DNA of 42,304 nucleotides from Methanothrix sp. Its GTDB lineage: Archaea > Halobacteriota > Methanosarcinia > Methanotrichales > Methanotrichaceae. The position numbers were made by a program, and so were the translations under genes. The DNA lies in assembly GCA_030611205.1 (NCBI GenBank), contig JAUWQF010000004.1:1-42304 (forward strand). Direction: 5' to 3'. Below, one piece after another: positions 4,392 to 42,304 of this stretch (position 1 is its first letter; each line of letters opens with the position of its first letter). The notes beneath the pieces were generated by a model that worked only from the letters and a program-made list of their open reading frames with translations, ran no database searches and had not been told where the DNA came from.

Positions 4392-4452
4392 AAGAAATGA
4401 TCTCCAAGGGCATGAGCTATATCTATATTTTCGTGCATATCGGTGACGAGCC

Positions 4453-5169: not shown

Positions 5170-5171
5170 CG

Positions 5172-6104
5172 GTGCTGGTCTTCCCGAGGAACAAGAGAGA
5201 AGGCGAAAAGGTCTGCCAGGCCCTGGCCAGCCGGTACAGGCCTTCGCTGGAGATCTACAGGAAAGAGAAAGACCTGGACAGAGACCCCGACAAAGACCCG
5301 AACAAAAACAAAGACCCGCAAGACCGATCGCCCTTCGAACGCCTGAAAGAGTTCGACCTGGTGATAGCGGTCATGGCGGTGGGGATAGTGGTCCGGCTCC
5401 TCTGCAACACCCTGGAAGACAAATGGACCGAAACACCGGTGGTAGCGGTGGACTCGTCGCTGAGATGCGCCGTCCCCGTGGTGGGAGGGCACCACGGCGC
5501 CAACGACCTGGCCCTCCACCTGGCCGAGGAGATGAATATGTACCCGGCGATCACCACTGCCACCGACTCCGCCGGAAAACCCAGCCTGGAGGGCACCGCC
5601 GAGCAGCTGGGTGCAAAGCTGGTGAACAGAGAATGCTCCAAAGAGGTGAACCTGGCCTTTCTCCAAGAAGATGTCGATGTCCCCATCCTGAGGCTGAAAG
5701 GCCCCAAAGTGGTGATAGTGGACGATGACGTGGCTGTTCTGAAGAGCAGAGGCGGCGTGGTGGTAGGGCTGGGAACCAGGCGAGGGGTGACATCCCAAGA
5801 GGTGATCGACGCGATCACCACCGCCCTCCGGTCGGTGGGCAAAACCCCCGGAGAGATCAGGGTGATGGCCACCGCCTGGATCAAACATGACGAACGAGGG
5901 ATCGAAGAGGCCGCCGAGAACCTGGACCGGGAGGTCATCTACTTAGACGAGCACGTCCTGAACTCCCAGACCACCACCACCCCCTCCAGGGCCTCGGACC
6001 TGGGCCTGATCGGGGTGGCCGAACCCGCCGCCATGGCCCTCTCGACCAGGCTACTGATGCCCAAAAGGATCTACGGGAGGGTTACCGTTGCCCTCGGAGA
6101 GTAA
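5172..6104 (+). CDS. cbiG: Cobalt-precorrin-5A hydrolase CbiG
   Basis: VIAVMAVGIVVRLL, VVGGHHGANDLALHLAE, VVVGLGTRRGVTSQEVIDAI. Confidence 0.88.
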   Translation: MLVFPRNKREGEKVCQALASRYRPSLEIYRKEKDLDRDPDKDPNKNKDPQDRSPFERLKEFDLVIAVMAVGIVVRLLCNTLEDKWTETPVVAVDSSLRCAVPVVGGHHGANDLALHLAEEMNMYPAITTATDSAGKPSLEGTAEQLGAKLVNRECSKEVNLAFLQEDVDVPILRLKGPKVVIVDDDVAVLKSRGGVVVGLGTRRGVTSQEVIDAITTALRSVGKTPGEIRVMATAWIKHDERGIEEAAENLDREVIYLDEHVLNSQTTTTPSRASDLGLIGVAEPAAMALSTRLLMPKRIYGRVTVALGE

Positions 6105-7566
6105 ACTCTACATCGTGGGGATCGGTCCCGGTGGCCATGATCAGATTACCCGAAAGGCGGTAGAGGCCATAAGAAGATCAGACTACGTAGTCGGCTACAG
6201 GACCTACCTGGACCTGGTGAGAGACCTGCTTGGTGATAAACAGGTCGTCTCCAGCGGGATGGGAGGCGAGGTGGACCGGGCCAGGACCGCCGTGGACCTC
6301 CTGGAAAAGGGATCGGTGGCCCTGATCAGCAGCGGAGACCCCAACATCTACGGGATGGGAGGCCTGGGGCTTGAGGTAGCCTCCCAGCGGGTGGGCCTCG
6401 ACCGGACGGAGGTAGTGCCGGGGATAACCTCCTTTACCGCCGCAGCCTGCCGTTCCGGGATCACCTTCAGAGACTCGGTGGCCATAATCAGCCTCAGCGA
6501 CCTATTGACGCCGTGGGACGATATCGAGCAGAGGGTGAGAGCTATAGCTGTGGCCGGGATGCCCCTGGCCCTCTACAATCCCCGAAGCAAAAAGAGAACC
6601 TGGCAGCTGGAAAAAACCCTGGAGATCTGCTCCCGGCAGGGCAGAGGGAACGAAGACCTCCTGGTGGCCAAGAAGGTCGCCCGTCCCGGGGAAGAGTTCC
6701 TCTGGACCTCTGTAGACCGGATGAGGGAGAAAGAAGAGCTGCAAAACGAGGTGGACATGTTCTCCCTGATCATCATCGGCGGCGAGGGCATGGTCCGGTC
6801 CGGATCACCGGTCCCGGGTTCCAGGATCGGGCTCGTGGGGATAGGACCAGGTGACCGATCGCACCTCACGCTGGAGGCCGAGAGGCTTCTGAAGGGGTCA
6901 GAGATGGTCCTGGGAGCGGAGAGGTACCTGAGATCGATAAAAGAACTGATCAAAGGAGAGACGATCCCTCACCGGGGCGTCCCAGAGGAGCGGATGAGAT
7001 CCAGCCTGCTGACAGCGAAGGCCGCCTCGGACAGGGGGAAGACCGCATCCATACTGGCGGGCGGTGATCCCAGCCTCTTCAGCTCCTCCTGGCGGGTCCT
7101 GGAAGAGGCGAGAGTCTCCGGCTGCAGCGTCCACGTCGCCCCCGGGCTGAGCGCCTTCTCCGCGGTCGCGGCCCGGGCCGGTGCACCCCTGGTGAACGAT
7201 TTCGTCGTACTCTCCTGGCCAGGAGATGGCCCGCGGCTCGGAGAGATCCTCAATCTGATGGAGAGGGGCTTCGGGGTGGTGATCTACAACCTGGACGCCG
7301 AGAGGCTCTCCCTCCTGACGGACCTGGTTGGCCATATGGACCGGGCCTCCGCCCTGGCCCGAGACGTCACCCGCCCGGAAGAGGTGATGGTCGTCGCCAG
7401 TATCTCGGACCTCGCGGCGCAGAAACTCGAGGGAAAGATCGAAGGCAAGATCAAGAGAGAGATCGAGGGAAAAAGATGGACCCTCATAGTTGCAGGACCC
7501 AACTCGTATATACAAAATGATAAAATAATTACCCGGAGAGGTTATGAGACCAAGTACAACTACTAG
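6088..7566 (+). CDS. cbiH: Precorrin-3B C17-methyltransferase CbiH, tandem fusion with a second CbiH-like methylase domain
   Basis: Domain 1: VGIGPGGHDQITRKA...SSGDPNIYGMGG...LSDLLTPWDDIEQR...LYNPRSKKR. Domain 2: VGIGPGDRSHLTLEA...GGDPSLFSSSW...APGLSAFSAVAARAGAPLVNDF...ITRRGYETKY. Confidence 0.85.
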   Translation: MPSESKLYIVGIGPGGHDQITRKAVEAIRRSDYVVGYRTYLDLVRDLLGDKQVVSSGMGGEVDRARTAVDLLEKGSVALISSGDPNIYGMGGLGLEVASQRVGLDRTEVVPGITSFTAAACRSGITFRDSVAIISLSDLLTPWDDIEQRVRAIAVAGMPLALYNPRSKKRTWQLEKTLEICSRQGRGNEDLLVAKKVARPGEEFLWTSVDRMREKEELQNEVDMFSLIIIGGEGMVRSGSPVPGSRIGLVGIGPGDRSHLTLEAERLLKGSEMVLGAERYLRSIKELIKGETIPHRGVPEERMRSSLLTAKAASDRGKTASILAGGDPSLFSSSWRVLEEARVSGCSVHVAPGLSAFSAVAARAGAPLVNDFVVLSWPGDGPRLGEILNLMERGFGVVIYNLDAERLSLLTDLVGHMDRASALARDVTRPEEVMVVASISDLAAQKLEGKIEGKIKREIEGKRWTLIVAGPNSYIQNDKIITRRGYETKYNY

Positions 7567-8221
7567 AACGGCTGATGCAAAAATGAGTGAAGATACCTAT
7601 CCAGATCTGGGCGCGGTCACTCCTCAGGCCAGAGAGATCTACAACACGAGCAGGAAGTTCATCGCCAAGACGGTGGGCGATAGGAACCCGGAAGACAAGA
7701 TCCGACAGAGATGCGTCATCGCCACCGGCGATCTGAGCATAGCGGAGACGCTCCGGTTCGTGAACGACCCAGTAGGCGCGGGCCTCAGGACCCTGGATAA
7801 AGGTGCCGGGATCTATGCCGACATCAAGATGGTAGAGGCGGGGATAGTCAAAAAAAGCCACCAGTGCCCGGTGACGACCTTCATCGGGAGAGGTGACGAA
7901 CTGGCAGAGAGAGAGGGCATCACCAGGACCTCTGCAGGGGTGATCGAGCTTGTAGACGATCTCTCGGGGAGCATAGTGGTGATCGGCAACGCCCCTTCTG
8001 CCCTGATGACCCTCTGCGAGCTGATGGAAGAGGGTAGGATCATGCCCGAGCTGGTGATAGGAGTCCCGGTGGGGTTCGTGAACGCCACGGAGAGCAAGGA
8101 AAGGCTGAGAGAAATCGACGTCCCCTCGGTATCCACGGTGGGCACCCGGGGAGGCACCCCCATAGCCGTGGCAGCGATTAACGAAATTATAAATATGCAC
8201 CATGTCGGAGCCGACCGTTGA
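7544..8221 (+). CDS. cbiC: Cobalt-precorrin-8 methylmutase CbiC
   Basis: KIRQRCVIATGDLSIAETLRF, IVVIGNAPSALMTLCELM, PVGFVNATESKERL. Confidence 0.92.
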   Translation: MRPSTTTRTADAKMSEDTYPDLGAVTPQAREIYNTSRKFIAKTVGDRNPEDKIRQRCVIATGDLSIAETLRFVNDPVGAGLRTLDKGAGIYADIKMVEAGIVKKSHQCPVTTFIGRGDELAEREGITRTSAGVIELVDDLSGSIVVIGNAPSALMTLCELMEEGRIMPELVIGVPVGFVNATESKERLREIDVPSVSTVGTRGGTPIAVAAINEIINMHHVGADR

Positions 8222-9227
8222 CCCGGTAACCAAGTTTGTGATACCCGGCCCCTGGATAGAGAGAGCAGGCGATCCCGACGTCCTGGAGAAGGTGAAGAGC
8301 GGCAGGTGGGTCCTCCTCTCCGACGGAGCCCTCCTCCGCCGGGGGTACACCACCGGCACGACCGCGGCCGCTGCCTGCAAGGGGGCGGTCCTCTCCCTGG
8401 CCAGTCCGACCGGGCCGACGACCGAAGTCAATGTTCTCACCCCCGCTGGCATAAGAGTCCCGGTGCCGGTCCGGGCCGAAGGCGGGATCTGTACCGCAAG
8501 CAAGGTGGGCGGCGATCATGAGTCCGACGTAACCGCGGGCATGGTCATAAGAGCCAGGGCCGAGACCTCCGGAGAGACGATGCTGGTGGCCGGCCCCGGG
8601 ATCGGGAGGATCAATAGCCGAGGGCTCTGCGCCCCCCCGGGGAAGGCGGCCATCAGCCAGTCGGCCAGACAAGAGATCATGAGCGCGATCGAAGAAGGGC
8701 TGGAGGCAACAGGACTCCCCGGTGCGCGGGTCGAGCTGGAGGTCCCGGATGGAGAGGAGATCGCCCTCCAGACCCTGAACCCCAAGGTGGGGGTGAAGGG
8801 CGGAATATCCATCCTGGGATCAACCGGGTTCGTCGAGCCCTGGAACGAGCACCTAGGCGAGAGCAGAGGGGCCGATATCAAGAAGCTCGACAAAGTGGTG
8901 GTGACCACGGGCCGGGTAGGATTGAAGTACAGCAGGGTCCTCTTTCCCGACCACGTGGCGGTGCTCATCGGAAACAAGCTGGACAGACTCGACCTCGGCG
9001 ACCAGCAAGACAGCATACTCTGCGGCCTACCCGCATTGATCCTGAAGTGGGGGATGCCCGAGGTCCTGGAAGGTACCGGGTACAGGACGGTTGCCGAGAT
9101 GATCGAGGACCAACAGGACCACCCCAGGATAGATACGGCTCTGAGGAAGGTGCAGAAGAGGCTACCCAATACCAGGATCGTGCTTTTGAGGAGAGATGGA
9201 AGCGTGCTAAGGGATGATAAGACATGA
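8202..9227 (+). CDS. cbiD: Cobalt-precorrin-5B C1-methyltransferase CbiD
   Basis: LRRGYTTGTTAAAACKGAVLSL and VTAGMVIRARAET; position in cbi operon. Confidence 0.92.
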   Translation: MSEPTVDPVTKFVIPGPWIERAGDPDVLEKVKSGRWVLLSDGALLRRGYTTGTTAAAACKGAVLSLASPTGPTTEVNVLTPAGIRVPVPVRAEGGICTASKVGGDHESDVTAGMVIRARAETSGETMLVAGPGIGRINSRGLCAPPGKAAISQSARQEIMSAIEEGLEATGLPGARVELEVPDGEEIALQTLNPKVGVKGGISILGSTGFVEPWNEHLGESRGADIKKLDKVVVTTGRVGLKYSRVLFPDHVAVLIGNKLDRLDLGDQQDSILCGLPALILKWGMPEVLEGTGYRTVAEMIEDQQDHPRIDTALRKVQKRLPNTRIVLLRRDGSVLRDDKT

Positions 9228-9820
9228 AAGTGGTAGGCGTGGGTGCCGGGCCGGGTATGCTGACCTTCGAGGCGGCCAGGGTCGTCGGTGAGGCGAGGTT
9301 GATTTACGGGTCCGAGCGGGCGATCGAGCTGGCCTCCAGCCAGATCAACCCCCGATCCGACGTCCACGTCATCGATGATTACAAGGCGCTGCGTGAGCTG
9401 CCCGATGACGCGGTCGTCCTATCCACGGGAGACCCGATGTTGAGCGGCCTCGGCTACCTCGGCGGAGAGATTGTCCCCGGGATATCCAGCATGCAGGTAG
9501 CCTGCGCCCGGTTGGGGATCAGCCAGATCAAGGTCGTTCCCATAACCGTCCACGGAAGAAAGATGGATCCTGGGCCGATAGCCGAAGAGATCAGGAGGGG
9601 AAAGTGCGTATTTCTTCTGGTCGACGACTCTACCGACCTGGCAGGACTATGCCAGCACCTGGAAAAGAGAGAGCTGGGCAGGGAGGTGGCCGTGCTCACC
9701 GACCTGGGTTACCCGGAGGAGAAAGTCATGATGGGCAACACCTCGGACCCGCCGCTGTCCGGTGGGCTGGCCTGTGTGATGATCGGAGAGCTAGGTTCTA
9801 GTAAAAATTTTGGACGATAA
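9224..9820 (+). CDS. cbiE: Cobalt-precorrin-7 C5-methyltransferase CbiE
   Basis: VVGVGAGPGMLTFEAARVV, YGSERAIELA, LSTGDPMLSGLGYL, IVPGISSMQVACARLG. Confidence 0.85.
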   Translation: MKVVGVGAGPGMLTFEAARVVGEARLIYGSERAIELASSQINPRSDVHVIDDYKALRELPDDAVVLSTGDPMLSGLGYLGGEIVPGISSMQVACARLGISQIKVVPITVHGRKMDPGPIAEEIRRGKCVFLLVDDSTDLAGLCQHLEKRELGREVAVLTDLGYPEEKVMMGNTSDPPLSGGLACVMIGELGSSKNFGR

Positions 9821-18286: not shown

Positions 18287-18360
18287 GGGGTTGTAGGGTA
18301 GCCTGGACATCCTTCGGCGTTCGGGACGCCGTAACCTGAGTTCGAATCTCAGCAACCCCA
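18287..18360 (+). tRNA. tRNA-Pro (anticodon CGG), encoded CCA follows at 18361-18363
   Basis: Acceptor ggggttg/caacccc; D arm gggt-agcctggac-atcc; anticodon arm cggcg-ttcggga-cgccg; T arm with gttcgaatc. Confidence 0.92.
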
Positions 18361-18388
18361 CCACAGCCCATCCATTTGAGGTGGCTAT

Positions 18389-18565
18389 TTGAAAGCCGAG
18401 AAGTATACTCGATATGAGCGCGCCAGAATTGTGGGGGCTCGAGCTTTACAAGTTTTGATGGGCGCTCCTGTATTTATCAATACCGACTCGATAGATCCTC
18501 TCGAAATAGCTCTTGAAGAAATGAAAATGGGAGTTATTCCCATTACCGTTAAACAGGAAAAGTGA
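18389..18565 (+). CDS. rpoK: DNA-directed RNA polymerase subunit K, absent from the supplied ORF track
   Basis: TTG start: [57 protein letters not shown] (58 aa). Confidence 0.92.
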
Positions 18566-19209
18566 TACCTTTAGAGGTAGGTGAAATTTTGGAAGAAGAT
18601 GTGATAGAGACAACGGTCAAAGAACATGAGATGCTTGTCCCTATAGATGAATACCTTGCAGCAGGCATACACATCGGTACGCAGCAGAAGACGAGCAGCA
18701 TGAAAGATTACATTTACAGGGTGCGCACGGACGGGCTCTACGTACTCGACGTCCAGGCCACGGATCTGCGCATCAGGCAGGCCGCAAAGTTCCTGGCGAA
18801 GTACGATCCGTCGAACATCCTCGTGATCTCGGCCAGACAGTACGGCCAGCGCCCGGCCTCCATGTTTGCCAAGTCTGTGAGGGCCAAGGCCATCGTAGGG
18901 CGTTACATCCCCAATACCTTGACCAACCCAACGTTTTACGGATATCTAGAGCCGGACGTGCTGATGGTCACAGATCCCAACGGTGATGGCCAGGCGGTGA
19001 TCGAGGCGATCGACGTGGGGATCCCCGTGGTCGCACTCTGCGATACCAACAACTTGACATCCAACGTAGATCTGGTGATACCGACCAACAACAAGGGCAG
19101 AAAGGCCCTCACCTTGATCTACTGGCTCCTGGCCAGAGAGATTTTGAGGCAGAGGAACGAAGAGGAACGATTCCGGCACACCGTATCCGACTTCGAGATG
19201 GAGTTCTGA
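18562..19209 (+). CDS. rps2: 30S ribosomal protein S2
   Basis: [33 protein letters not shown]...YIPNTLTNP. Confidence 0.94.
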
Positions 19210-19215
19210 TCCGTC

Positions 19216-20016
19216 ATGAGACATCCCGCCGCAGCAGACAGTTTCTACCCCGCAGATCCCGGTGCCCTCCGGCGCGAGCTGGAGCAGGCCTTCCTGGGGG
19301 TGAACACGTCTGGCGAGGTGATACCTGCTCATGGAGTGGTCGTCCCTCATGCAGGCTATCCCTACTCGGGATCTGTGGCGGCGGAGGTCTACTCCCGACT
19401 TCCTCGGAGAGATACCTACGTTCTCATCGGGCCGAACCACACCGGGATAGGCCTGCCCGTATCCCTATCCAGGGACTCATGGATGACACCATTGGGCGTA
19501 GTCGAATGTGATCTGGAGTTTGCCGACGCTCTGAGAGGAAGCATAATCGAGGTGGACGAATCTGCTCACCTCTACGAGCACTCGCTGGAGGTCCAGATAC
19601 CCTTCCTCCAGTACCGGTTCACCGGTTTCAGGATAGTCTCGATATGCATGGGCCTCCAGGACGAGGAGACCGCGGTGGATGTCGGCGAAGCCGTCGGAGA
19701 GGCGGCTCGCGATCTGGGCAGAGACTGTACGGTTATCGCAAGCAGCGATTTTACCCATTACGAGGCCTTCGAAGACGCTAATAGAAAAGACATCAGGCTG
19801 ATCGAGTCCATCCTGCAGATGGATATACCGAATATCTACGACCTGGTTTACCGGCTGAACATTACCGCCTGTGGATTCGGCCCCATCGCCGCCACCATAA
19901 CCGCATCCCGGATACTGGGTGCGAGCAGCGGCAAGCTCCTCCGCTACGCCACCAGCGGCGAGACCACCGGCGATTACAGCCAGGTAGTGGGGTACGGAGC
20001 GCTCGTCTTCACCTAG
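19216..20016 (+). CDS. MEMO1 family protein
   Basis: MRHPAAADSFYPADPGALRREL...GVVVPHAGYPYSGSVAAEVY...YVLIGPNHTG...SSDFTHYE. Confidence 0.92.
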   Translation: MRHPAAADSFYPADPGALRRELEQAFLGVNTSGEVIPAHGVVVPHAGYPYSGSVAAEVYSRLPRRDTYVLIGPNHTGIGLPVSLSRDSWMTPLGVVECDLEFADALRGSIIEVDESAHLYEHSLEVQIPFLQYRFTGFRIVSICMGLQDEETAVDVGEAVGEAARDLGRDCTVIASSDFTHYEAFEDANRKDIRLIESILQMDIPNIYDLVYRLNITACGFGPIAATITASRILGASSGKLLRYATSGETTGDYSQVVGYGALVFT

Positions 20017-20027
20017 GAGGCCTTTCA

Positions 20028-20996
20028 CTGACCACAGCATCGGCTCCGGGCAAGGTGATCCTCTTCGGAGAGCACGCCGTGGTCTCCGGGGCACCCGCTC
20101 TGGGCGCGGCCGTCGATATGAGGGTCCGGGTCCGAGTCGAGGACGCTTCAGGTCTCGTAATAGAAGCCCGCAACCTGGTCCTGGTCCTGGACGGTCTGGC
20201 CGTCGACCCCCTATCTAGAAAGGCCGACATGAAGGCGATCACCGGGAAGGCTCTTCACGCCACGAGGTACGTCTCTGCGGTTCTCGCCGAGGTAGAAGCC
20301 CGGGACCTTCGTGTGGTGGTGGAATCCGAGATACCCCCTTCCTCCGGGCTGGGTTCGTCGGCCTCGGTCGTCGTCGCCACCCTGGCGGCGCTGAACGACC
20401 ATCTGAGTCTGGGACTCTCTTTTGCTGAGATCGCCGAGAGGGCTTATTCGATAGAGAAAAATGTACAGAATGGCATGGGAAGCCGGATGGATACCGCCCT
20501 GGCCACCTTCGGCGGCTACCAGGTTGTCACCGGAGAGGCCAAACCGGTTGACCTGCCGAAGCTCGATCTGATCGTGGGCTGTACAGGGAAGCCCCATGAT
20601 ACCGGGTTGGAAGTGGAGAAGGTCCAGAGGTTGCGTGCCAGGTACCCCGACGTTGTGGATCCCGTCTTCGAGGCGATGGGCGCGATCTCCAGGAGGGCCC
20701 TGACCCATCTCAAAGAACGGAAGCTGACGGAACTGGGTATTCTCATGAACGTGAACCACGGCCTACTGGAGTCCATCGGGGTGGGGACCCGAGAGCTGAC
20801 CGAGCTGGTCTATGCGGCCCGTGGTGCGGGAAGAGCCCTCGGGGCGAAGCTGACCGGTGCAGGTGGAGGCGGATGCATGATCGCGTTGCCCGGTCCGGAA
20901 TATCTCGATAGGTCGAGAGCGATGACGGCTATCGTCCAGGCCGGGGGCGAAGCCTTCCCCGTGACCACCGGATGTGAAGGCGTGTTGCTGGGTTGA
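20028..20996 (+). CDS. mvk: Mevalonate kinase, apparent CTG start
   Basis: TTASAPGKVILFGEHAVVSGAPALG; PPSSGLGSSASVVV; KLTGAGGGGCMIAL. Listed GTG (20055) would cut the conserved N-terminus. Confidence 0.9.
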   Translation: MTTASAPGKVILFGEHAVVSGAPALGAAVDMRVRVRVEDASGLVIEARNLVLVLDGLAVDPLSRKADMKAITGKALHATRYVSAVLAEVEARDLRVVVESEIPPSSGLGSSASVVVATLAALNDHLSLGLSFAEIAERAYSIEKNVQNGMGSRMDTALATFGGYQVVTGEAKPVDLPKLDLIVGCTGKPHDTGLEVEKVQRLRARYPDVVDPVFEAMGAISRRALTHLKERKLTELGILMNVNHGLLESIGVGTRELTELVYAARGAGRALGAKLTGAGGGGCMIALPGPEYLDRSRAMTAIVQAGGEAFPVTTGCEGVLLG

Positions 20997-21757
20997 GAAA
21001 GATGGTCGGGATACTGAAGATCGGTGGCAGCGTACTGACCGATAAGACGAAGCTGGAATCTCCGCGTATGGAGGCGATCGAGCGGATCGCGGCGGAGGTG
21101 GCAAGTTGTTCCTCGGGACTGGTACTGGTACATGGTGCAGGCTCTTTTGGACACATCCACGCCGATAAGTACGACCTTAGGGAGAGGTTCGATCCCGAGG
21201 GAATCCTGGAGACGCACAGGTCTGTGGTGAGGCTGAACGAGATCGTGGTAGAAGCCCTGGGTCAAGCAGGAGCCCATCCCGTCCCCGTCCATCCGCTGAG
21301 CTGTGCCCTTCTCCAGGATGGTAGGATAAGAGATATGAATATCGGGCCCCTAACGGAGATGATAGAGAGGGGTCTGTTGCCCGTGCTACACGGCGACGTG
21401 GTCATGGACAGGGCGCGAGGCGCGGATATACTATCCGGTGACCAGATCATAACCCACCTGGCCAGATCCCTAGGGGCGGATGTCGTGGCGTTGGGGACGA
21501 GAGAGGACGGCGTCATCTATGGTGGAGAGGTCGTTTCTAGAGTTACCAGAGAGAACTATCACCGTATAGAGCCCGAGCTAGGCGGGAGCAGAGGGGTCGA
21601 TGACGTCACCGGTGGCATGAGAAAGAAGGTGATGGAGCTTCTGGACCTGGCAGACGACGGCATCCCATCGCTTATATTCAACGCCGGGAAGAAGGGTATG
21701 ATCGAGAAGGCCCTGGAAGGCGAACTCGTGGGAACCCTTGTGGAGGGATCCTCATGA
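20993..21757 (+). CDS. ipk: Isopentenyl phosphate kinase
   Basis: GILKIGGSVLTDK, LVHGAGSFGHIHADKY, GGMRKKVMELLDLA; amino-acid-kinase fold. Confidence 0.9.
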   Translation: MRKMVGILKIGGSVLTDKTKLESPRMEAIERIAAEVASCSSGLVLVHGAGSFGHIHADKYDLRERFDPEGILETHRSVVRLNEIVVEALGQAGAHPVPVHPLSCALLQDGRIRDMNIGPLTEMIERGLLPVLHGDVVMDRARGADILSGDQIITHLARSLGADVVALGTREDGVIYGGEVVSRVTRENYHRIEPELGGSRGVDDVTGGMRKKVMELLDLADDGIPSLIFNAGKKGMIEKALEGELVGTLVEGSS

Positions 21758-22842
21758 CCACCTCCAGCAGAAAACTGGATCACATCAGGATCTGTCTGGA
21801 GGAGGATATAGAGGCTGCCTGGAGACCCTTCAATGATCTGATGCTGGTGCCCAGGGCACTGCCGGGCATCGATGCTTCCGAGGTTAACACAAGATGCCGG
21901 TTCCTGGGCAAAGAGCTGGCCGCCCCCCTGATGATCTGCGGCATGACGGGAGGGCATCCTGATACCAAGGAGATCAACCGGAACCTGGCCCGGGCCGCCC
22001 AAGAGGTGGGCGTCGCCCTGGGTGTGGGCTCGCAGAGGGCTGCCCTGGAGGATCCGATGATGGAAGAAACCTTCTCCGTGGTCAGAGATGCCGCCCCAGG
22101 CGTGCCCGTGGTGGGCAACATCGGAGCGGTACAGCTCAAGAAGGAGGGGCCGGAGATCTTGGATAGGCTGGCGGAGATGATCGATGCCGACGCCCTGGCC
22201 ATCCACCTGAACTTCCTCCAGGAGAGCGTCCAGCCAGAGGGAGAGACATGGGGCGGGGGGCTGATCGAGGCCATCGGGTCGGCCGCCCGGGGAAAGGTGC
22301 CCATCATCGTAAAGGAGACGGGAGCCGGGATCTGCAGAGAAGATGCTGTCGCCCTCGTCGAGGCGGGCGTCCGGATCATCGATGTGAGCGGGTTGGGTGG
22401 AACCAGCTGGGCCGCCGTCGAGGCTCGCCGGGCGGAGGAGAAAGGCGATCAAGGGTCGTACCGTCTGGGCCGGACCTTCAGAAACTGGGGTATTCCCACA
22501 CCGGTCAGCATTGTGGAATGCGTCGCCGCAGGAGCCGAGGTGATATCCTCGGGAGGCGTCAGGAGCGGTGCCGACGTGGCCAAGAGCCTGGCTCTGGGAG
22601 CCACGATAGCCGGCTCGGCGCTGCCCTTGCTAGCGCCCGCTACGAAGAGCGCCGAGGAGGTGGCCGAGGTCCTCCGGCGCTATATACGAGAACTCAGAAC
22701 CTCGATGTTCCTGACCGCCTGCGTCGATCTGGCAGAGCTGGGGTCTGCGCCCATAGTCGTGGGCGGAAGGGTACGAGAGATCCTGGATCAGAGAGGATTT
22801 GAGACGAAAAAGTTCGCGATTATTAGAGAGATGTCAAGATGA
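21754..22842 (+). CDS. fni: Type 2 isopentenyl-diphosphate delta-isomerase
   Basis: RKLDHIRICLEED, GMTGGHPDTKEINRNLA, ALGVGSQRAALEDP, AIHLNFLQESVQPEGE, DVSGLGGTSWAAVEA. Confidence 0.94.
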   Translation: MTTSSRKLDHIRICLEEDIEAAWRPFNDLMLVPRALPGIDASEVNTRCRFLGKELAAPLMICGMTGGHPDTKEINRNLARAAQEVGVALGVGSQRAALEDPMMEETFSVVRDAAPGVPVVGNIGAVQLKKEGPEILDRLAEMIDADALAIHLNFLQESVQPEGETWGGGLIEAIGSAARGKVPIIVKETGAGICREDAVALVEAGVRIIDVSGLGGTSWAAVEARRAEEKGDQGSYRLGRTFRNWGIPTPVSIVECVAAGAEVISSGGVRSGADVAKSLALGATIAGSALPLLAPATKSAEEVAEVLRRYIRELRTSMFLTACVDLAELGSAPIVVGGRVREILDQRGFETKKFAIIREMSR

Positions 22843-22861
22843 ATATTAGAGAGTTGTCAAG

Positions 22862-24199
22862 ATGAATAATATAGAAATCAAAGCGGTCGGCGGCTACGAA
22901 GAGGTCGGAAGGAACATGACCGCGATCCGGGTCGATCGGGACGTCATCATTATGGATATGGGTCTCCGGTTGGACAGAGTTCAGATACACGAAGATACGG
23001 ATGTGGAACGGCTTCACACTTCGGAGCTGATCAGCATGGGTGCCATCCCTGATGACAGCGTCATGAAGAACATAAATGGCAAGGTAAGAGCGATAGCTTG
23101 CACCCATGGTCATCTGGACCACATCGGAGCCGTATCCAAGCTGGCGTACAAGTACAAGGCACCCGTACTGGGTACACCCTACACCGCAGACCTCATAAAA
23201 CAGGAGATTCGGGACGAGAAGCTCTTCGACGTCACGAACGAGGTCATAACCATGAACGCCGGGGAGAGCTATCAGGTCACCCCGGATATCGAGCTGGAGT
23301 TTGTAAGGGTCCAGCACAGCATAGTGGACTGCGTCTTCGCAGCCATACACACCCCCTACGGTGTGATCCTCTATGCCAACGACTTCAAGATGGACAGGAA
23401 CCCCACCCTGGGCCAGCCACCTGACTTCGTCAGGATGAAGGAACTAAGTAAGGAGGGTGTCCTGGCCCTGATCACCGAGACTACCAACGCGGGGATATCC
23501 GGGAAGACTCCCTCAGAGCAGATCGCGAAGGACCTGGTCTGGGACGCCTTATTGGGAACTGCGGAGAGTAAGTCGGGTGTGCTGGTTACCACCTTCTCGT
23601 CACACATCGCCCGGATCAGGGCCATAATCGAAGCTGCTCACGAGATGGGACGGAAACCGGTTCTTCTGGGCAGATCGATGGACAAGTACTGGGGAACCGC
23701 TAAGAGGACGGGGTACGCGATGAATGCCAAAAACCTCGCCATCTATGGCAGGCGGAGGAGCATAGACAAGTTCTTCAAGACGATGATGCAGGATGGTAAA
23801 GACAAGTATCTGCCCATAATGACCGGCCACCAAGGCGAACCCGGAGCCATACTGGGCAGGGTGGCCAATGGGGAGACACCCTATAAGGTCGAATCGGGAG
23901 ACAAGGTGATATTCAGCGCGGGGATAATACCCCAGCCCCTCAACAGAGCAAACCGCTACGTGGTGGAGACGAAGCTGAAGATGAGAGGGGCCAGGATATA
24001 CGACAACGTCCACGTCTCGGGACATGCCTGCATAGAAGATCACTGGGAGCTGCTCAGGATGATAAAACCGGAGCACGTGATAACCAGTCACGGTACCTTC
24101 GAGTCGCACGGCAAGTACCTGACCATGGCCGAAGAGACGGGGTACGAGCTGGATTATACGGTCCACATCCTCAGAAACGGGCAGGGGCTGCCGCTCTGA
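22862..24199 (+). CDS. rnj: Archaeal ribonuclease J
   Basis: Metallo-beta-lactamase ACTHGHLDHIGAVSKL; beta-CASP SHIARIRAIIEAA; TGHQGEPGAILGR; HVSGHA. Confidence 0.93.
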   Translation: MNNIEIKAVGGYEEVGRNMTAIRVDRDVIIMDMGLRLDRVQIHEDTDVERLHTSELISMGAIPDDSVMKNINGKVRAIACTHGHLDHIGAVSKLAYKYKAPVLGTPYTADLIKQEIRDEKLFDVTNEVITMNAGESYQVTPDIELEFVRVQHSIVDCVFAAIHTPYGVILYANDFKMDRNPTLGQPPDFVRMKELSKEGVLALITETTNAGISGKTPSEQIAKDLVWDALLGTAESKSGVLVTTFSSHIARIRAIIEAAHEMGRKPVLLGRSMDKYWGTAKRTGYAMNAKNLAIYGRRRSIDKFFKTMMQDGKDKYLPIMTGHQGEPGAILGRVANGETPYKVESGDKVIFSAGIIPQPLNRANRYVVETKLKMRGARIYDNVHVSGHACIEDHWELLRMIKPEHVITSHGTFESHGKYLTMAEETGYELDYTVHILRNGQGLPL

Positions 24200-24235
24200 G
24201 ATAAGTTTAACCGGTCGGAGTGTTGGTGACAATAT

Positions 24236-25198
24236 ATGCTTGACGAGGAGCTAAAGAGACGTGCTTCCATGGTAACTGATGCTATCGAGAAGCTGCTGCC
24301 GGTGGTTCATCCGCAGGGTCTGTATGAGGCGGGCAGGCATCTTGTGGATGCTGGCGGGAAGCGGCTCCGGCCGAGCATGTTGATCCTGGCGGCGGAGACC
24401 GTGGAAGGAGACCAAAAAGTCGTTCTTCCTGCCGCGGTCTCCGTGGAGCTGGTCCACAACTTCACCTTGATCCACGACGACATAATGGACCATGCAGAGA
24501 CCAGAAGAGGTCGGCCCGCGGTTCATGTGAAGTGGGACGAGTCCGGAGCCATCCTCGCAGGAGATACCCTCTACTCCAAGGCCTTCCAGATCCTCGCCTC
24601 CACGAAGACCGATCCCGGAAGCGTGGTAGCATCGATGGAGATGATGGCAAGAACCTGTACCGCCATCTGCGAGGGTCAGTGGCTGGATATGGAGTTCGAG
24701 ACGAAGGACCGGGTATCGGAGGACGAGTACCTGGAGATGATCGAGAAGAAGACCGGTGTCCTCTACGGCGCTGCGTCCTGGGTGGGGGCCACCCTATCCG
24801 GCGCTCCGGAAGAGCAGGTGAAGGGGCTGGAGGAGTTCGGCAGGCTGGTGGGTATGGGGTTCCAGATCTACGACGACGTCCTGGACCTGACCGCGCCTCC
24901 TGAGGTGCTGGGCAAGCCCCGGGGCGGGGATCTTGTGGAAGGGAAGAAGACGCTGATAATGATCCACGCCATGGAGAGGGGGGTCATGCCGGAGGTCTTG
25001 GGGAAGAAGAACGCCACAACCGAAGAGATCGAAGCGGCCTTATCGGTCCTGGAAGAGAGCGGGTCGATAGACTACGCCCGGACCAAGGCGGCGTCGCTGG
25101 TGGAGCAGGGGAAGAGAGCCTTGGATGTCCTGGAGGACTCAAAGGCGAAGGATCTGCTGCTGGAGCTCGCCGACTACATGATCAGCCGAAGGTACTGA
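24236..25198 (+). CDS. idsA: Trans-isoprenyl diphosphate synthase (short-chain, GGPP/FPP type)
   Basis: GGKRLRPSMLILAAE, LIHDDIMDHAETRRGRPAVH, FQIYDDVLD, GDLVEGKKTLI. Confidence 0.92.
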   Translation: MLDEELKRRASMVTDAIEKLLPVVHPQGLYEAGRHLVDAGGKRLRPSMLILAAETVEGDQKVVLPAAVSVELVHNFTLIHDDIMDHAETRRGRPAVHVKWDESGAILAGDTLYSKAFQILASTKTDPGSVVASMEMMARTCTAICEGQWLDMEFETKDRVSEDEYLEMIEKKTGVLYGAASWVGATLSGAPEEQVKGLEEFGRLVGMGFQIYDDVLDLTAPPEVLGKPRGGDLVEGKKTLIMIHAMERGVMPEVLGKKNATTEEIEAALSVLEESGSIDYARTKAASLVEQGKRALDVLEDSKAKDLLLELADYMISRRY

Positions 25199-35975: not shown

Positions 35976-36407
35976 CTAGACCCGCGTTCCCCTTCGAGAG
36001 ACCAGCAGGGTCTTCGCCGCTCTTTCCCTCTCCACCGAACGGCGGCATCGTGGACAGAGAGTTATCCAGGAGGCGCCGAAGGCGTCGGTCTGCAGCTCCT
36101 GAGGTATGGTCTTCCCCAGCCGGTCCATCTCCCCGTAGGTTACGAATGGCGCGCCGCACCGTTGGCAGGGCACAAGGTCGAAGGAGAGGACGAACTCTGG
36201 CTGCACCTCCCCAAAGACCAGATCGATGGCTTCCTCGGGGCAGGCCCGGGCGCACTCCTGGCAGTCCTCGTCGCAGATGCCCGGAAAGTCGATCCTTCGC
36301 ACGCCGTCCTCGTCCGAGAGCCTGATCAGGTCGACGGGACAGACGGCAGAACAGGCCCTGCAGCCGATGCACGTCTTCTCGTCCACGGCCAGAAGTCGTT
36401 TCTTCAT
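35976..36407 (-). CDS. 4Fe-4S protein with extra C-terminal CxxC pairs (HycF-like layout)
   Basis: CIGCRACSAVCP, CDEDCQECARACP, then CQRC and CPRC. Confidence 0.75.
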   Translation of the reverse strand: MKKRLLAVDEKTCIGCRACSAVCPVDLIRLSDEDGVRRIDFPGICDEDCQECARACPEEAIDLVFGEVQPEFVLSFDLVPCQRCGAPFVTYGEMDRLGKTIPQELQTDAFGASWITLCPRCRRSVERERAAKTLLVSRRGTRV

Positions 36408-36868
36408 AACACCCTCCCTGAGGCCAAGGACCTCCCCATCTTCACCGCAGCCCTCTTCCTGATCTCTCTGGCGATATTCTCCACATCGTCCCAGATCAGG
36501 GCCTGTGATGGACAGGTGACCACACAGGCAGGGACCTCCCGATCAGGACAGAGGTCACACCTGCGAACCCCTGCAGTATCGAGCTGGACCGCGCCGAAGG
36601 GGCAGGCCAGTACGCATAGGTCGCAGCCGGTGCACCTATCCGAATCGAAGGTGATCGAGCCGTTATCCTGCGATAGGGCCCCAGGATAGCAGACCATCAC
36701 GCAGGTCGCCTTCTCGCACTGGCAACAGGATACGGGCACAGATACCCTGTCCCTCACCACATCCACGAATATCTTCGCCGCGCCGTGGGCCTTCTCACAG
36801 GCCACCTCGCAGGCGTGACAGGCGATGCACCTGCTCATATCTGCATAAACCGCCTTCGACAATATCAT
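36404..36868 (-). CDS. 4x[4Fe-4S] ferredoxin, HycB/CooF-like
   Basis: CIACHACEVAC, CCQCEKATCVMVCYP, CTGCDLCVLACP, CDLCPDREVPACVVTCP; ATGA overlap with the upstream gene. Confidence 0.85.
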   Translation of the reverse strand: MILSKAVYADMSRCIACHACEVACEKAHGAAKIFVDVVRDRVSVPVSCCQCEKATCVMVCYPGALSQDNGSITFDSDRCTGCDLCVLACPFGAVQLDTAGVRRCDLCPDREVPACVVTCPSQALIWDDVENIAREIRKRAAVKMGRSLASGRVL

Positions 36869-38904
36869 CCCCTCCCGATCCTGCATGCAGCAACCTTGAA
36901 CTCCGGGATCTTGGCCACCGGGTCCAGGACGTCGGTGGTGAGCCGGTTTGTATCAGGAAAGTGGAAGGGCAGGAATACCACACCAGGCCCAACCCTCTCG
37001 GTCAGATCGGCCCTGGCCAGGATCCTGCCCCGGGCGGTGGTCACCGCCACAGGGTCACCCTCCTCGATCTCCAGCTTTTTTGCGTCATGAGGGTTGATCT
37101 CCACGAAAAGCTCCGGCACCCGTCCTGCCAGAGACGGACTGCGCCGGGTCATGGATCCGGCGTTGTAATGGAGAACCACCCGTCCCGTGGTGAGGACCAG
37201 AGGATACTCCTGGTCGGTCACCTCGGCTGGAGGTTTGTACTCCACGGGGACTATCCTGCCCCGGCCGTCGGGGGTAGAGAAGCCCTCCGTGTGGAGTATG
37301 GGCGTCCCCGGATGTCCCGGATCGGGGCAGGGCCAGATCAGCCCTCCGGGCGAGGCCAGCCGTTCTCTGGTCACGCCACCGTAGCTGGGCAAGACCCGAT
37401 TGATCTCGGTGAGCACATCATCCGGACCGGCATAATGGAAGCCAAGACCCAGCCTCTCGGCCACCTGGGAGAATATCCAGAGGTCCTCTCTGGCATCTCC
37501 CGGTGGGTCTGCAGCTCGACGGATCCGCTGGACCCGGCGCTCGGTGGACGTGAAGGTCCCTTCCTTCTCCGCCCAGAGAGCCGCGGGCAGGACCAGGTCG
37601 GCCATCTGGGCGGTCTCGGTCATGAAGATATCCTGGACCACCATGAACTCCAGCCGCTCCAGGGCTTCCCTGGCACGGTCGGTGTTGGGACCGGAGTTTA
37701 TGGGGTCCTCGCCCACCACGTAGAGGATCCTCAGATCGCCATCGTAGGCTGCCTCGGTCATCTCCACGGCGGTCAGCCCCGGAGCGGTGGGAAGATGGCT
37801 CGCGCCCCAGGCCTCTTCCACGTCCTCCACCACGCCGGGGTCGTCGATCCTCCTGCCACCGGGATAGAAGTCCGGCAGCATGCCCATATCGCAGGCTCCC
37901 TGGACGTTGTTCTGACCGCGGAGGGGGTAGAGACCCGCGCCCGGCCGCCCAACCTGACCGCAGATCAGGGCCAGGTTGGCGCAGGCGGTCACGTTATCCG
38001 TGCCCACAGCGTGCTGGGTAATCCCCATGGAGTAGACGATGGACGACGCCGGGGACCGGGCATAGGATCTGGCCGCCTTCACGATGCCAGCGGCAGACAC
38101 ACCAGCTATCTCGGCGACCTTCTCAGGGGTGTACTCCTCCAGCGACCCTACCAGGTCCTCGAACCCCACCGTCTGCCGGGTGACGAACTCAGTATCCGCC
38201 AGACCCTCTTTCAGAATGACCCTCATCATGCCGTTCAGAAGGGCCACGTCGGTCCCTGGATCGATCTGGAGATGTTGATCGGCGAGCCAGGCGGTCGGCG
38301 TCAGCCGGGGATCGACCACGATCACCGTCGCGCCCCGGTCCTTGGCCTTCAAGATCCACCTGGCCACGATGGGGTGGTTCTCTGCGAGGTTCGACCCGAT
38401 CACCAGGATGCACCGGGAGTTGGCCAGGTCAGGGAAGGGGTTGGTCACGCCCACGAGGCCGAAGGCCCTCTCCAGACCATATATGGTCGGCGAGTGGCAG
38501 AGCCGGGCGCAGTTGTCCACGTTGCTGATGCCCAGGAGACGGGCCATCTTCTGGAAGATGTAGTTCTCCTCGTTGGTGACCTTGGCAGAGCCCAGAAACC
38601 CGATTGTGTGCGGACCGTGGGCTTCCAGCGCCTCCTTCAGCTTTTCCGAGACCAGGTCCAGCGCCTCTTCCCAGGAGATCTCGGCCCAGCCGTCTTCGGT
38701 CTTCTTGAGAGGATGGCGCAGCCTCTCCGGATGGCCCAGGACCTCCAGGGCGGCGTTCCCCTTGGGACAGAGCGCCCCTTCGTTCACGGGATGGTCTGGC
38801 ATATACTCTATCCTCGGCTCTTGCCCATCCTCCAACGCTACGTAAAACCCGCATCCTACACCACAGTAAGGACAGATGGTGGGAACCAGAGATTCGTTGG
38901 CCAT
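36865..38904 (-). CDS. fdhA: Molybdopterin oxidoreductase, formate dehydrogenase alpha-type (FdhF/FdhA), Cys at the probable active site
   Basis: CPYCGVGCGFYV...CPKG [4Fe-4S] motif; DNCARLCHSPT; GMGITQHAVGTDNV-like region; QNNVQGACDMGMLPDFYPG; HYNAGSMTRRSP. Start ATG 38904. Confidence 0.85.
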   Translation of the reverse strand: MANESLVPTICPYCGVGCGFYVALEDGQEPRIEYMPDHPVNEGALCPKGNAALEVLGHPERLRHPLKKTEDGWAEISWEEALDLVSEKLKEALEAHGPHTIGFLGSAKVTNEENYIFQKMARLLGISNVDNCARLCHSPTIYGLERAFGLVGVTNPFPDLANSRCILVIGSNLAENHPIVARWILKAKDRGATVIVVDPRLTPTAWLADQHLQIDPGTDVALLNGMMRVILKEGLADTEFVTRQTVGFEDLVGSLEEYTPEKVAEIAGVSAAGIVKAARSYARSPASSIVYSMGITQHAVGTDNVTACANLALICGQVGRPGAGLYPLRGQNNVQGACDMGMLPDFYPGGRRIDDPGVVEDVEEAWGASHLPTAPGLTAVEMTEAAYDGDLRILYVVGEDPINSGPNTDRAREALERLEFMVVQDIFMTETAQMADLVLPAALWAEKEGTFTSTERRVQRIRRAADPPGDAREDLWIFSQVAERLGLGFHYAGPDDVLTEINRVLPSYGGVTRERLASPGGLIWPCPDPGHPGTPILHTEGFSTPDGRGRIVPVEYKPPAEVTDQEYPLVLTTGRVVLHYNAGSMTRRSPSLAGRVPELFVEINPHDAKKLEIEEGDPVAVTTARGRILARADLTERVGPGVVFLPFHFPDTNRLTTDVLDPVAKIPEFKVAACRIGRG

Positions 38905-38937
38905 ATTCTTAGTCTCCAGGACGGTATTATCGAGGCC

Positions 38938-38973
38938 AAAAAAAGGGTGGGGGCCCCGTCTCAGGGGGTCCCG
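38938..38973 (-). terminator. Putative GC-rich hairpin plus T7 terminator/attenuator
   Basis: Minus strand gggaccccctgagacggggcccccacccttttttt, overlapping the ferredoxin stop codon. Confidence 0.45.
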
Positions 38974-39476
38974 CCTCCCACTATCCCTCTGGCCAGCGTC
39001 AGAGCGGCATCTGCGCGTATCGATCCTGAAAAGTCTTCCACCTCGGTGAAGGCCAGGGCTCGTGTGGGGCAGGCCACCACGCAGACGGGAACCTCCCTGT
39101 CGGGGCAGCGATCGCACTTGATGGCGACCCGCCTTTCCTTATGCTTCCCGATCATCCCGTAGTTGCAGACCATGGCGCAGGTCCAGCAGCCCACGCAGAT
39201 GTCGGGGTTATGGGTCACCACCCTGGAGATCTCGTCCTGGGTCAGGGCTCCCGTGGGACAGACGGATACACAGGGTGCGTCTTCACAGTGGTGGCAGATC
39301 ATGGTGACCGGGATCATCTGTTCTGGAGAGTATTCGACGTAGATCCGCTTTCTGGGCACCGGCTTCTCCGTCACGGCACCGAAGAGGTTCTTGCTCTCAG
39401 AGTGTTCTACGGCACAGGCAATCTCGCAGGAGTGACATCCCACGCACCTGTCCAGACGGACTAAGACCTCTTTCAT
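38961..39476 (-). CDS. cooF: 4x[4Fe-4S] ferredoxin, CooF/HycB-like
   Basis: CVGCHSCEIAC, CHHCEDAPCVSVCP, CVGCWTCAMVC, CDRCPDREVPVCVVACP; directly downstream of cooS. Confidence 0.83.
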   Translation of the reverse strand: MKEVLVRLDRCVGCHSCEIACAVEHSESKNLFGAVTEKPVPRKRIYVEYSPEQMIPVTMICHHCEDAPCVSVCPTGALTQDEISRVVTHNPDICVGCWTCAMVCNYGMIGKHKERRVAIKCDRCPDREVPVCVVACPTRALAFTEVEDFSGSIRADAALTLARGIVGGGTP

Positions 39477-39494
39477 CTCATCATCACCCCGAGA

Positions 39495-41369
39495 TCAGGG
39501 GTCCAGCCCCAGAGCCTTCCGCTTCGCTTCGATCCGCTCGATCATCAGATTGGCTCCCTTGAAGGGGTCCGGCTCCACGGCGAAGGTTGCCCCTATCACG
39601 TCTTCTAGCCCGTCGGTGAGCAGCTCCGTTACCAGGGAGCTTCCCAGGACCGGCGGCACCGTTCCCAGCACGGTATAGATTCCGGAGGCTACGACGTAGG
39701 TGCCGATGCTCACCGCCTTCTCGCTCATCCACTCCGGAGCCGATCCGGCTGCGGGCAGGTCGCTTATGTCTACCCCCATGTGGTTGGCCAGGACGGCGGC
39801 CAGCACCAGGATCCGGCTGATGTCCACGCAGGAGCCCATGTGGAGCACCGGAGGGATGCCCAGCGACTCGCAGACCGCCCTCAGCCCTTCACCGGCCTCT
39901 TTGGCCGCCTCCGGCTGGAGCAGTCCCGCCTTGGCGCAGGCGATGGCGTTGCAACCCGTGGTGACCACCAGGACGTTGTTCTTGATCAGCTCCTTGACCT
40001 GGTTGACGTGGCCGTAGTCGTGCTGGATCTTGACGTTGTTGCAGCCCACAACAGCCCCCACGCCCTTGATCGCTCCCGACTTGATGGCTTCGACCAGCGG
40101 CTCGGGACTTCCGCCCAGGGCTTCCAGGATGGCCTCGGCGCTGAAGCCCACCATGCAGTTGCACTTCTCGCTGGGGATGTTGACCCTCTGAGGGTTGCGG
40201 TTCTCGTAGTTCTCCACCGCCGTCTTCACGATCGCCTTGGCGGTATCGAGAGCCTCGTCCTCGTGGAACTCCATTCTGACCGTTCCTGGGAACTCGGCCT
40301 TGGGCGAGGTGGAGATGAACTTGGTATGGTAGCAGCCTGTCAGGTCGCCCAGAGATGGCATGATGCATTGGACGTCCACGATCATGGCCTCGACGGAACC
40401 GGTGATCACCGCCAGCTCTTGCTGAAGGAAGTTACCTGCCGTGGGGACGCCGTGGCGCATCATGATCTCGTTGCCGGTGCAGCACATGCCCACCACGTTG
40501 ATGCCTTTGGCACCCAATTTCTTGGCCAGGTCCAGCATCTCGGGATCTTCTGCCGCGGCCACTATCATCTCCGAGAGGATGGGCTCATGACCGTGCATCA
40601 CGATGTTTACCTCGTCTTCCTTAAGCACGCCCAGGTTGGCTTCGGAGATCACCGGCGTGGGGGTGCCGAAGAGCACGTCCTGGATCTCGGTGGCGATCAT
40701 GGACCCGCCCCAGCCGTCGGATATGCTGGTCCTGAGGCCGTGGAGAAGGATGTGAACGGGGTCGTTGTCCACGCCGATGTGGGTCCGGTGCATGCACTCC
40801 ACGATCTCCCGGTCCACACCGCGGGGATCGATGCCCGCGTTGGTCCATATCTCCACCCGCTGCGGTGGAGCCCGGCGGGTGAACCGGATCGGGCCGTCCT
40901 GGTTGCCGAACTCCGCCATAACAGCGCCGGCCAGATCGAGGGCTACCTCCTCTTTCGTCCGGTCTTCGGTGGAGATGTTGTACTCGGTCGCCAGGGCGTT
41001 GAGCTTGGCCTCGTCCTTGATCTGATAGCTGGTGGCCTTCCCCTCGGTCATGAGCTTGAAGGCGTGGGCCGCGTCCCGGGCGTGGTCTGAGTGGGCTGCG
41101 GCTCCGGCGGCTATCATGCGGAGCAGGTTGCGGGCCACTATGATGTCTGCGGTGGCTCCGCAGACCCCCTTCTCCGGTCCCTCGCCGAAGGGATCGATGC
41201 GACAGGGGCCCATGTTGCAGTTGCGACAGCAGAGTCCCAGCTGGCCTAAGCCGCATTGGGGCTGCTGCTTGTCGAAACGATCCCAGGCGGTCTCCATCCC
41301 CTCCTTTTTGGCCACCCGTAACATGGACTGGGTGGCAGGATCGATACTTCTCTCAGCGTTCTTTGTCAT
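39495..41369 (-). CDS. cooS: Anaerobic carbon monoxide dehydrogenase catalytic subunit CooS
   Basis: QCGLGQLGLCCRNCNMGPCRIDPFGEGPEKGVCGATADIIVARN; MHGHEPILSEM; GMCCTGNEIMMRHG; CNNVKIQHDYGH; MGSCVDISR. Start ATG 41369 after aggaggt. Confidence 0.95.
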   Translation of the reverse strand: MTKNAERSIDPATQSMLRVAKKEGMETAWDRFDKQQPQCGLGQLGLCCRNCNMGPCRIDPFGEGPEKGVCGATADIIVARNLLRMIAAGAAAHSDHARDAAHAFKLMTEGKATSYQIKDEAKLNALATEYNISTEDRTKEEVALDLAGAVMAEFGNQDGPIRFTRRAPPQRVEIWTNAGIDPRGVDREIVECMHRTHIGVDNDPVHILLHGLRTSISDGWGGSMIATEIQDVLFGTPTPVISEANLGVLKEDEVNIVMHGHEPILSEMIVAAAEDPEMLDLAKKLGAKGINVVGMCCTGNEIMMRHGVPTAGNFLQQELAVITGSVEAMIVDVQCIMPSLGDLTGCYHTKFISTSPKAEFPGTVRMEFHEDEALDTAKAIVKTAVENYENRNPQRVNIPSEKCNCMVGFSAEAILEALGGSPEPLVEAIKSGAIKGVGAVVGCNNVKIQHDYGHVNQVKELIKNNVLVVTTGCNAIACAKAGLLQPEAAKEAGEGLRAVCESLGIPPVLHMGSCVDISRILVLAAVLANHMGVDISDLPAAGSAPEWMSEKAVSIGTYVVASGIYTVLGTVPPVLGSSLVTELLTDGLEDVIGATFAVEPDPFKGANLMIERIEAKRKALGLDP

Positions 41370-41428
41370 TATTGTGACCTCCTCTACACTATGCATATTA
41401 TCGTAATTATCTTTGGTCCACGGCGTTG

Positions 41429-41438
41429 ATATTTAAGC
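41429..41438 (-). promoter_or_regulatory. Putative box A upstream of cooS
   Basis: Minus strand gcttaaatatc, about 60 nt before the cooS ATG. Confidence 0.45.
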
Positions 41439-42304
41439 TTTGTTACAGTGTGTCATGCTACGGATTTGCACATGTCTCAAATCGCTTTAAGTACCAACTT
41501 TTTCCATAACAGGATAATAAATAAGTTATATTGTAAGTTGCTAAATGGGTATATGGGGCGGGACTAGCATGTATAAACTTGTCAAGGTACCCTCTAGCTC
41601 ACTTTCAGCAGTAAAGAAGTGATGACTTGAGAATTTTTAACATCCCATGAAGATGTATTTATTCCACAATCACAAATCACAAATCACAATAAATACAATG
41701 ATTCAAAGTAGATAAATACAGCATGTGACGTTTTAAACTGTTAATCCTGTACAATGTCGCAATAGAGTGTAATCAAAACGCCGATGTATGTTGATTTTTA
41801 AGAAAAACGCTATCGAGAAAATCCTCCCTTCGGTCGAATTTACTCTGAGCACTTCAGTAGCTAACATTTTTATGACAAGCAACACCTCGAATTAATATGA
41901 TTTTTTTTAATAAAAATTAAATGGCATGTCAATCACCACTATATTCTCTTGCCTAAAGAGCATATAATGAGAACTTAAACATAATTTCAGAACTTCTTCG
42001 ATTCGATAATCGCAATACAGTCAAAATAAGATAGTCTCCACTCACCCAACCTACTGAGTTTCATTATTTTACTCAGACTTAGCCGTAATATCCACTATGT
42101 GAATGGCTGTATTTTCCAAGCCTCGAAGAATGGTTGAAGTAACTTCCGGATTAGCCTTCTAAACTTCCAGAGCGGAGCACGTTTGAGATATGAAGAAATT
42201 TTCCTTAGGCCATCCAGGAAAAGCCCTACCATGCGATCTTTTCCTTTTGGAGGCTTACGGACATCGCCAGTATCTTCTTTTTTTTCCCTTCAAGTACACA
42301 TAGG

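Follow-up and report, generated by a model that had tools for sequence, protein, structure and literature searches.

A conserved cooS-cooF-fdhF-hycB-hycF operon in Methanothrix and its relatives, with a possible role in CO-formate redox coupling

Five genes for CO dehydrogenase, formate dehydrogenase and iron-sulfur proteins form one operon

We analyzed a 42,304-nucleotide stretch of Methanothrix sp. DNA (the window). Five neighbouring genes on its minus strand, at positions 35976-41369, have as products CooS, two polyferredoxins (one of CooF type, one of HycB type), a Cys-type FdhF and a small Fe-S protein. The genes are tightly spaced, their content and order are conserved in relatives, the fifth is a homologue of hycF, and no hydrogenase was found in the genome. 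The operon is a real and conserved combination of known parts, and the combination is new. We infer its function to be that of a CO-formate redox system, in which a CO dehydrogenase (CODH) module (CooS and CooF) is joined to FdhF, HycB and HycF, the formate arm known from formate hydrogenlyase (FHL); we give this reading an even chance of being correct.

An ORF check bore out the five reading frames of the first-pass annotation, all on the minus strand. The first gene, cooS (39495-41369), encodes a Ni-dependent CODH catalytic subunit of 624 aa. It is followed by hycB1, the CooF-type gene (38961-39476), fdhF (36865-38904), hycB2 (36404-36886, with a start at 36886 or 36868) and the hycF-like gene (35976-36407). 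The gap between cooS and hycB1 is 18 bp and that between cooF and fdhF about 56 bp, while ATGA overlaps are found at the fdhF/hycB2 and hycB2/hycF junctions. The five genes therefore look like one operon.

A Shine-Dalgarno sequence, GAGGAGGT, is located directly 5' of position 41369, which is most likely the CooS start, in agreement with the first-pass coordinates and in preference to the start of a longer ORF at 41396. A putative archaeal TATA box, CTTAAATAT (41429-41437, minus strand), was assigned by consensus match some 60 bp upstream of cooS. The approximately 900 bp from upstream of cooS to the window end (41410-42304) are apparently noncoding, with 36% GC compared to 56% for the window. 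No long gene was found in this stretch, and an Rfam search over the whole window gave no match. Between cooF and fdhF (38904-38961) the coding strand has a run of seven T, which could act as a partial terminator and keep CODH expression above that of the formate dehydrogenase (FDH).

The genes adjoining the cluster encode Mer and an archaeal NMN adenylyltransferase, and CdhA is encoded elsewhere in the genome. The window also contains a cobalamin synthesis cluster at 3780-9820 (CbiL, CbiF, CbiG, CbiH fused to a second methyltransferase-like domain, CbiD and CbiE). A typical archaeal core cluster is found at 18287-25198, with tRNA-Pro (CGG), ribosomal protein S2, MEMO1, mevalonate kinase, IPP isomerase, an RNase J-like nuclease and a prenyl synthase in a row.

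The CO dehydrogenase module

CooS scored 747 bits against TIGR01702 (cut-off 478), and its nearest solved structure was 6t7j_B (836 bits). The sequence has motifs fitting the six C-cluster ligands of CODH structures and the C-x7-CC-x2-C-x4-C motif of the D and B clusters. It is the sole CooS found in the genome.

Both polyferredoxins had previously been described as HycB-like 4x[4Fe-4S] proteins. The cluster count agrees with the at least 16 cysteines that both have in relatives, but in many genomes the first is paired with cooS only, and it is therefore CooF-type. Its gene adjoins cooS in fdh-linked and unlinked loci alike, and the window protein has 16 cysteines in Fer4-type domains. A CooS equivalog with an adjoining CooF-type polyferredoxin places the first two genes among the CooS-CooF CODHs. 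At fdh-free loci (L123 and L174) the Methanosarcina-type CooF differs from the fdh-linked CooF by an insert of 22 residues and by the absence of the latter's C-terminal region. These changes may reflect loss of the FDH partner.

The formate dehydrogenase arm

FdhF scored 841 bits against TIGR01591 (cut-off 666) and is of the type present in FHL. Its closest solved relatives were 9t1s_L from an F420 FDH, matched over the full length, and 7qv7_S, the FdhF of hydrogen-dependent CO2 reductase (HDCR). At the metal-ligand position, in the ARLCHS motif, it has a cysteine where 9t1s_L shows X, a non-standard residue. The model score and this motif agree with the earlier assignment as a Mo/W FDH with a Cys active site. 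An FdhF-like subunit with another substrate, which would make the operon a CODH with a different kind of Mo/W oxidoreductase, is very improbable. FdhF family membership was assigned by sequence alone, and for distant FdhA homologues in ANME archaea the substrates are uncertain (PMC9012536). However, the score against the FDH equivalog model, the full-length 9t1s_L match, the conserved Cys-His and LRGQNNVQGACDMG motifs and the pairing with FHL-type HycB and HycF all argue for a formate enzyme.

Two further FDHs were found in the same genome (L161 and L162, on contigs C163 and C12). The first, a NuoG-like protein of 919 aa, is accompanied by a DHODB-type subunit and by GltD-like neighbours, and the second, of 670 aa, has sulfhydrogenase beta/gamma-like neighbours. 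Whereas both have flavin/pyridine-nucleotide-type neighbours, the cooS-linked FDH has none and thus alone has solely Fe-S partners. No FrhB-type gene was found on the contig of any FDH in this genome. FrhB-family genes were confined to contigs C133 and C166, which carry one FrhB-family protein and one sulfite/nitrite reductase fusion. The fusion (L164:1720-3669) joins an FrhB/FdhB-type domain to a sulfite/nitrite reductase domain and resembles F420-dependent sulfite reductase.

The top solved match of HycB2, the second 4x[4Fe-4S] polyferredoxin, was E. coli HycB (7z0s_B), and hycB2 accompanies fdhF in cooS-linked and cooS-free modules alike. The fifth protein had been called a ferredoxin with extra CxxC pairs. 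The pairs were confirmed as an invariant CxxC...CxxC quartet, but the protein is HycF-like. All 25 aligned members match the HycF model NF009053, and their profile aligns to E. coli HycF (7z0s_F) over positions 10-125, through the C-terminal domain. For an AlphaFold model (pLDDT 89) the sole PDB matches at E ≤ 0.001 were the HycF chains 7z0s_F/7z0t_F. With these three kinds of match a generic ferredoxin was rejected. The window protein scored 34 bits compared to an NCBIfam full-length cut-off of 204 bits, and is therefore a homologue of HycF, not an equivalog.

Residues C81, C84, C118 and C121 are invariant, as are the cysteines of one [4Fe-4S] cluster, while the second [4Fe-4S] motif was lost in two lineages. 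The quartet, CxxC-x33-CPxC in the window protein, fits the CxxC-x34-CPxC metal-ion site that HycF has near FdhF (PMC9474812). In E. coli FHL, electrons move between FdhF and the hydrogenase by way of HycB and HycF (PMC9474812), and both electron-transfer subunits are present here at the level of homology. The HycF homology of the fifth protein makes FdhF-HycB-HycF the formate arm of FHL, with CooS-CooF at the place of the hydrogenase.

The gene order is conserved in two families

We compared the lists of CooS and FdhF matches to count co-located genes. Of the 238 genomes of the class, 22 have fdhF no more than about 1 kb from cooS. Fourteen of these are from Methanotrichaceae (six genera) and eight from family f3 (three genera), which is Methanosarcinaceae as judged by its named members. 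Recurrence in 22 genomes and nine genera makes a chance arrangement untenable, and the cooS-fdh linkage expected by the first-pass annotation was thus recovered in relatives. The full order cooS-cooF-fdhF-hycB-hycF was read in 19 cases (the window and 18 relatives), with gaps nearly always below 120 bp. Named carriers of all five genes are Ca. Methanocrinis natronophilus Mx and the Methanothrix MAGs 280, LCB019-064 and SKW87. The closest named relatives of the window are Candidatus Methanocrinis, Methanothrix and Methanosaeta (Methanotrichaceae). Loci of Bipolaricaulota/Dehalococcoidales (L070, L075 and L099) with cooS and fdhF 2-6 kb apart were judged not to be the same cluster.

In the CooS tree the linked state was found on deep branches of both archaeal subclades, with at least five changes. 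Loss from a linked ancestor would be the more probable history. Divergence of the other proteins followed that of CooS (r = 0.91 for CooF, 0.93 for FdhF, 0.88 for HycB and 0.89 for HycF; 0 of 2000 permutations), which fits genes kept together but is partly expected from shared species history and vertical inheritance. The linked FdhF proteins as a single clade were rejected (p-AU 1.3e-6). A single clade of Methanotrichaceae was rejected for CooS (p-AU 0.0014) but not for FdhF (p 0.28), so CooS and FdhF may have been transferred jointly between families.

The two modules also occur apart

cooS-cooF was found without fdh in Methanotrichaceae genus g2 and in most Methanosarcina-type genomes. Conversely, fdhF-hycB-hycF was found without cooS in five relatives (L194, L172, L182, L186 and L198), directly downstream of split archaeal glutamate synthase genes of Methanotrichaceae. 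The L194 locus was confirmed to encode GATase, Glu_synthase and GXGXG domains, the L172 locus a Glu_synthase domain, and the ORFs neighbouring L182, L186 and L198 are closely similar to those of L194/L172. These loci, which can be likened to the F420-linked glutamate synthases described in ANME, possibly encode a formate-driven glutamate synthase. A third group of the same FDH clade is located near formylmethanofuran-dehydrogenase-like, FmdE or FdhD genes. In the FdhF tree the cooS-linked modules, the cooS-free modules and the third group formed one clade, apart from NAD-/F420-type FDHs (100/100). We read this as one FDH lineage that has probably been joined to different Fe-S enzymes. Because it also occurs cooS-free beside glutamate synthase, the FDH arm behaves as a plug-in electron module.

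In genome G028 fdhF is missing from the cooS cluster, with 117 bp between the cooF and hycB matches (L118:5295-5412). Its hycB and hycF stay in the cooS cluster, and a separate fdhF-hycB-hycF copy is present at L172.

The separate occurrence of the arms, the fdhF loss in G028 and the failure of linked FdhF to form one clade count against a joined CO-formate system. Since each arm is found apart, coupling through the ferredoxin pool is an alternative to one complex. CooS-CooF would then reduce a general ferredoxin and FdhF-HycB-HycF would be a separate ferredoxin-dependent FDH, co-regulated by the operon and giving the same net reaction without direct wiring. This agrees with the modules being apart in many relatives and with the ability of HDCR to use reduced ferredoxin, though inefficiently, as electron donor (PMC7533326). 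We nevertheless consider it rather unlikely, since HycF is a fixed link to the partner enzyme in FHL and is less expected in an FDH that uses ferredoxin freely, and since gene order and tight spacing are kept in nine genera.

Hydrogenases and formate channels

The genome is 95% complete in 181 contigs, and a missed gene is possible behind each absence reported from it. No NiFe hydrogenase was found beyond a weak FpoD-like match, and none in the cluster. [FeFe] hydrogenase was found in none of 31 genomes, this one included. As stated in the first-pass annotation, no F420, hydrogenase or formate-transporter gene lies within the cluster, and by eye none was seen beside it in the ORF lists of relatives with long contigs.

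A FocA/FdhC-type formate channel is present in six cluster-bearing relatives (G004, G007, G009, G010, G014 and G017); in the window genome and in three others with the cluster (G005, G013 and G016) none was found. The channels of the six relatives would suit an FDH arm that oxidizes formate and feeds the electrons into cell metabolism via CooF and ferredoxin, with CooS as a CO scavenger or CO supplier and formate as the donor. Cleavage of formate to H2 and CO2 is on record for some Methanothrix strains (PMC6687939), and beside glutamate synthase the FDH arm most plausibly donates electrons from formate. However, the genomes without a detected channel and standard energetics, which favour CO to formate, make formate oxidation by the operon improbable.

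Proposed function

We favour a CO-formate redox system. CO would be oxidized at the CooS C-cluster and its electrons would exit via the D-cluster to CooF, which would pass them to HycF and then HycB, and FdhF would reduce CO2 to formate with the electrons from HycB. The whole chain would thus run from CO through CooS, CooF, HycF, HycB and FdhF to formate. The CODH and FDH halves may be parts of one complex or meet via dedicated Fe-S proteins. The stricter version, a natural CO:formate oxidoreductase in which CODH replaces the FHL hydrogenase within one soluble complex and the same arm is also plugged into glutamate synthase, is put forward tentatively from the sequences and has somewhat less than an even chance.

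The net conversion of CO to formate has about -16.5 kJ/mol under standard conditions (PMC9166738). By our calculation this value corresponds to about 780 for formate (M) over CO (atm) at equilibrium. With 1 mM formate the balance point is accordingly about 1 ppm CO, and the reaction is favoured towards formate except where CO is present only in traces. Flow could reverse where CO is very scarce and formate abundant. The genome carries two PurP-family genes, and PurP consumes formate in making purines; the operon may thus provide formate for this pathway in addition to disposing of reducing power.

If the operon directly couples CO oxidation to formate production, it is a natural template for CO-to-formate catalysis and suggests that acetoclastic methanogens lacking hydrogenases have a route for CO. 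Such coupling could also help with an unexplained trait of Methanothrix, where the role of FDH was called unclear (PMC6687939). The glutamate synthase version suggests that the FHL arm is a general electron adaptor.

Comparison with known systems

Methanosarcina has related cooS-cooF pairs, and its CooS1F-type monofunctional CODH shares CooS and the 16-Cys CooF-type partner. There the cluster ends after cooF, whereas the window operon continues with fdhF-hycB-hycF. The F420-dependent FdhAB of methanogens shares the FdhA-type catalytic subunit (9t1s_L). Membership in this group was rejected because FdhF has no adjoining FdhB/FrhB flavoprotein partner; its clade is also separate from the F420-linked FdhA of relatives.

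E. coli FHL-1 (FdhF-HycBCDEFG) shares homologues of FdhF, HycB and HycF, and the metal quartet near the C-terminus, CxxC-x33/34-CPxC, is retained in the window HycF-like protein. This protein begins about where HycF residue 30-40 aligns and thus is without the N-terminal extension of HycF. The window lacks the HycE/HycG NiFe hydrogenase and the HycC/HycD membrane arm and has CooS-CooF instead, and its FdhF has Cys where that of E. coli has Sec.

HDCR (FdhF, HycB3/HycB4 and HydA2) likewise combines FdhF with HycB-type polyferredoxins and is matched strongly at 7qv7_S, and both systems are predicted to be soluble. HDCR membership was rejected, as no HydA2-type [FeFe] hydrogenase was found in the window genome, which has a HycF-like subunit instead. 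An HDCR-like scheme with CooS in place of the hydrogenase had been proposed for this DNA. The replacement survives the linkage and neighbour-gene checks, but with a HycF homologue as the fifth gene FHL (FdhF-HycB-HycF) is a closer model than HDCR.

M. acetivorans makes formate from CO, which was attributed to formylmethanofuran dehydrogenase (PMC4652020), and conversion of CO to formate in T. kivui depends on CooS, Ech2 and HDCR and proceeds via H2 (PMC7533326). No cooS-fdhF-hycB-hycF operon was described in the literature searched, nor in the main-text passages located by keyword in two broad CODH context surveys. A 2022 study states that no natural enzyme directly coupling CO oxidation to formate production was known (PMC9166738). 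The synthetic CFOR of Thermococcus onnurineus from that study also joins CODH and FDH through Fe-S proteins and makes formate from CO (PMC9166738). It is an engineered fusion with Fe-S proteins of unrelated enzymes, whereas the window operon is natural and conserved, encodes separate subunits and has a CO:formate activity predicted from its genes.
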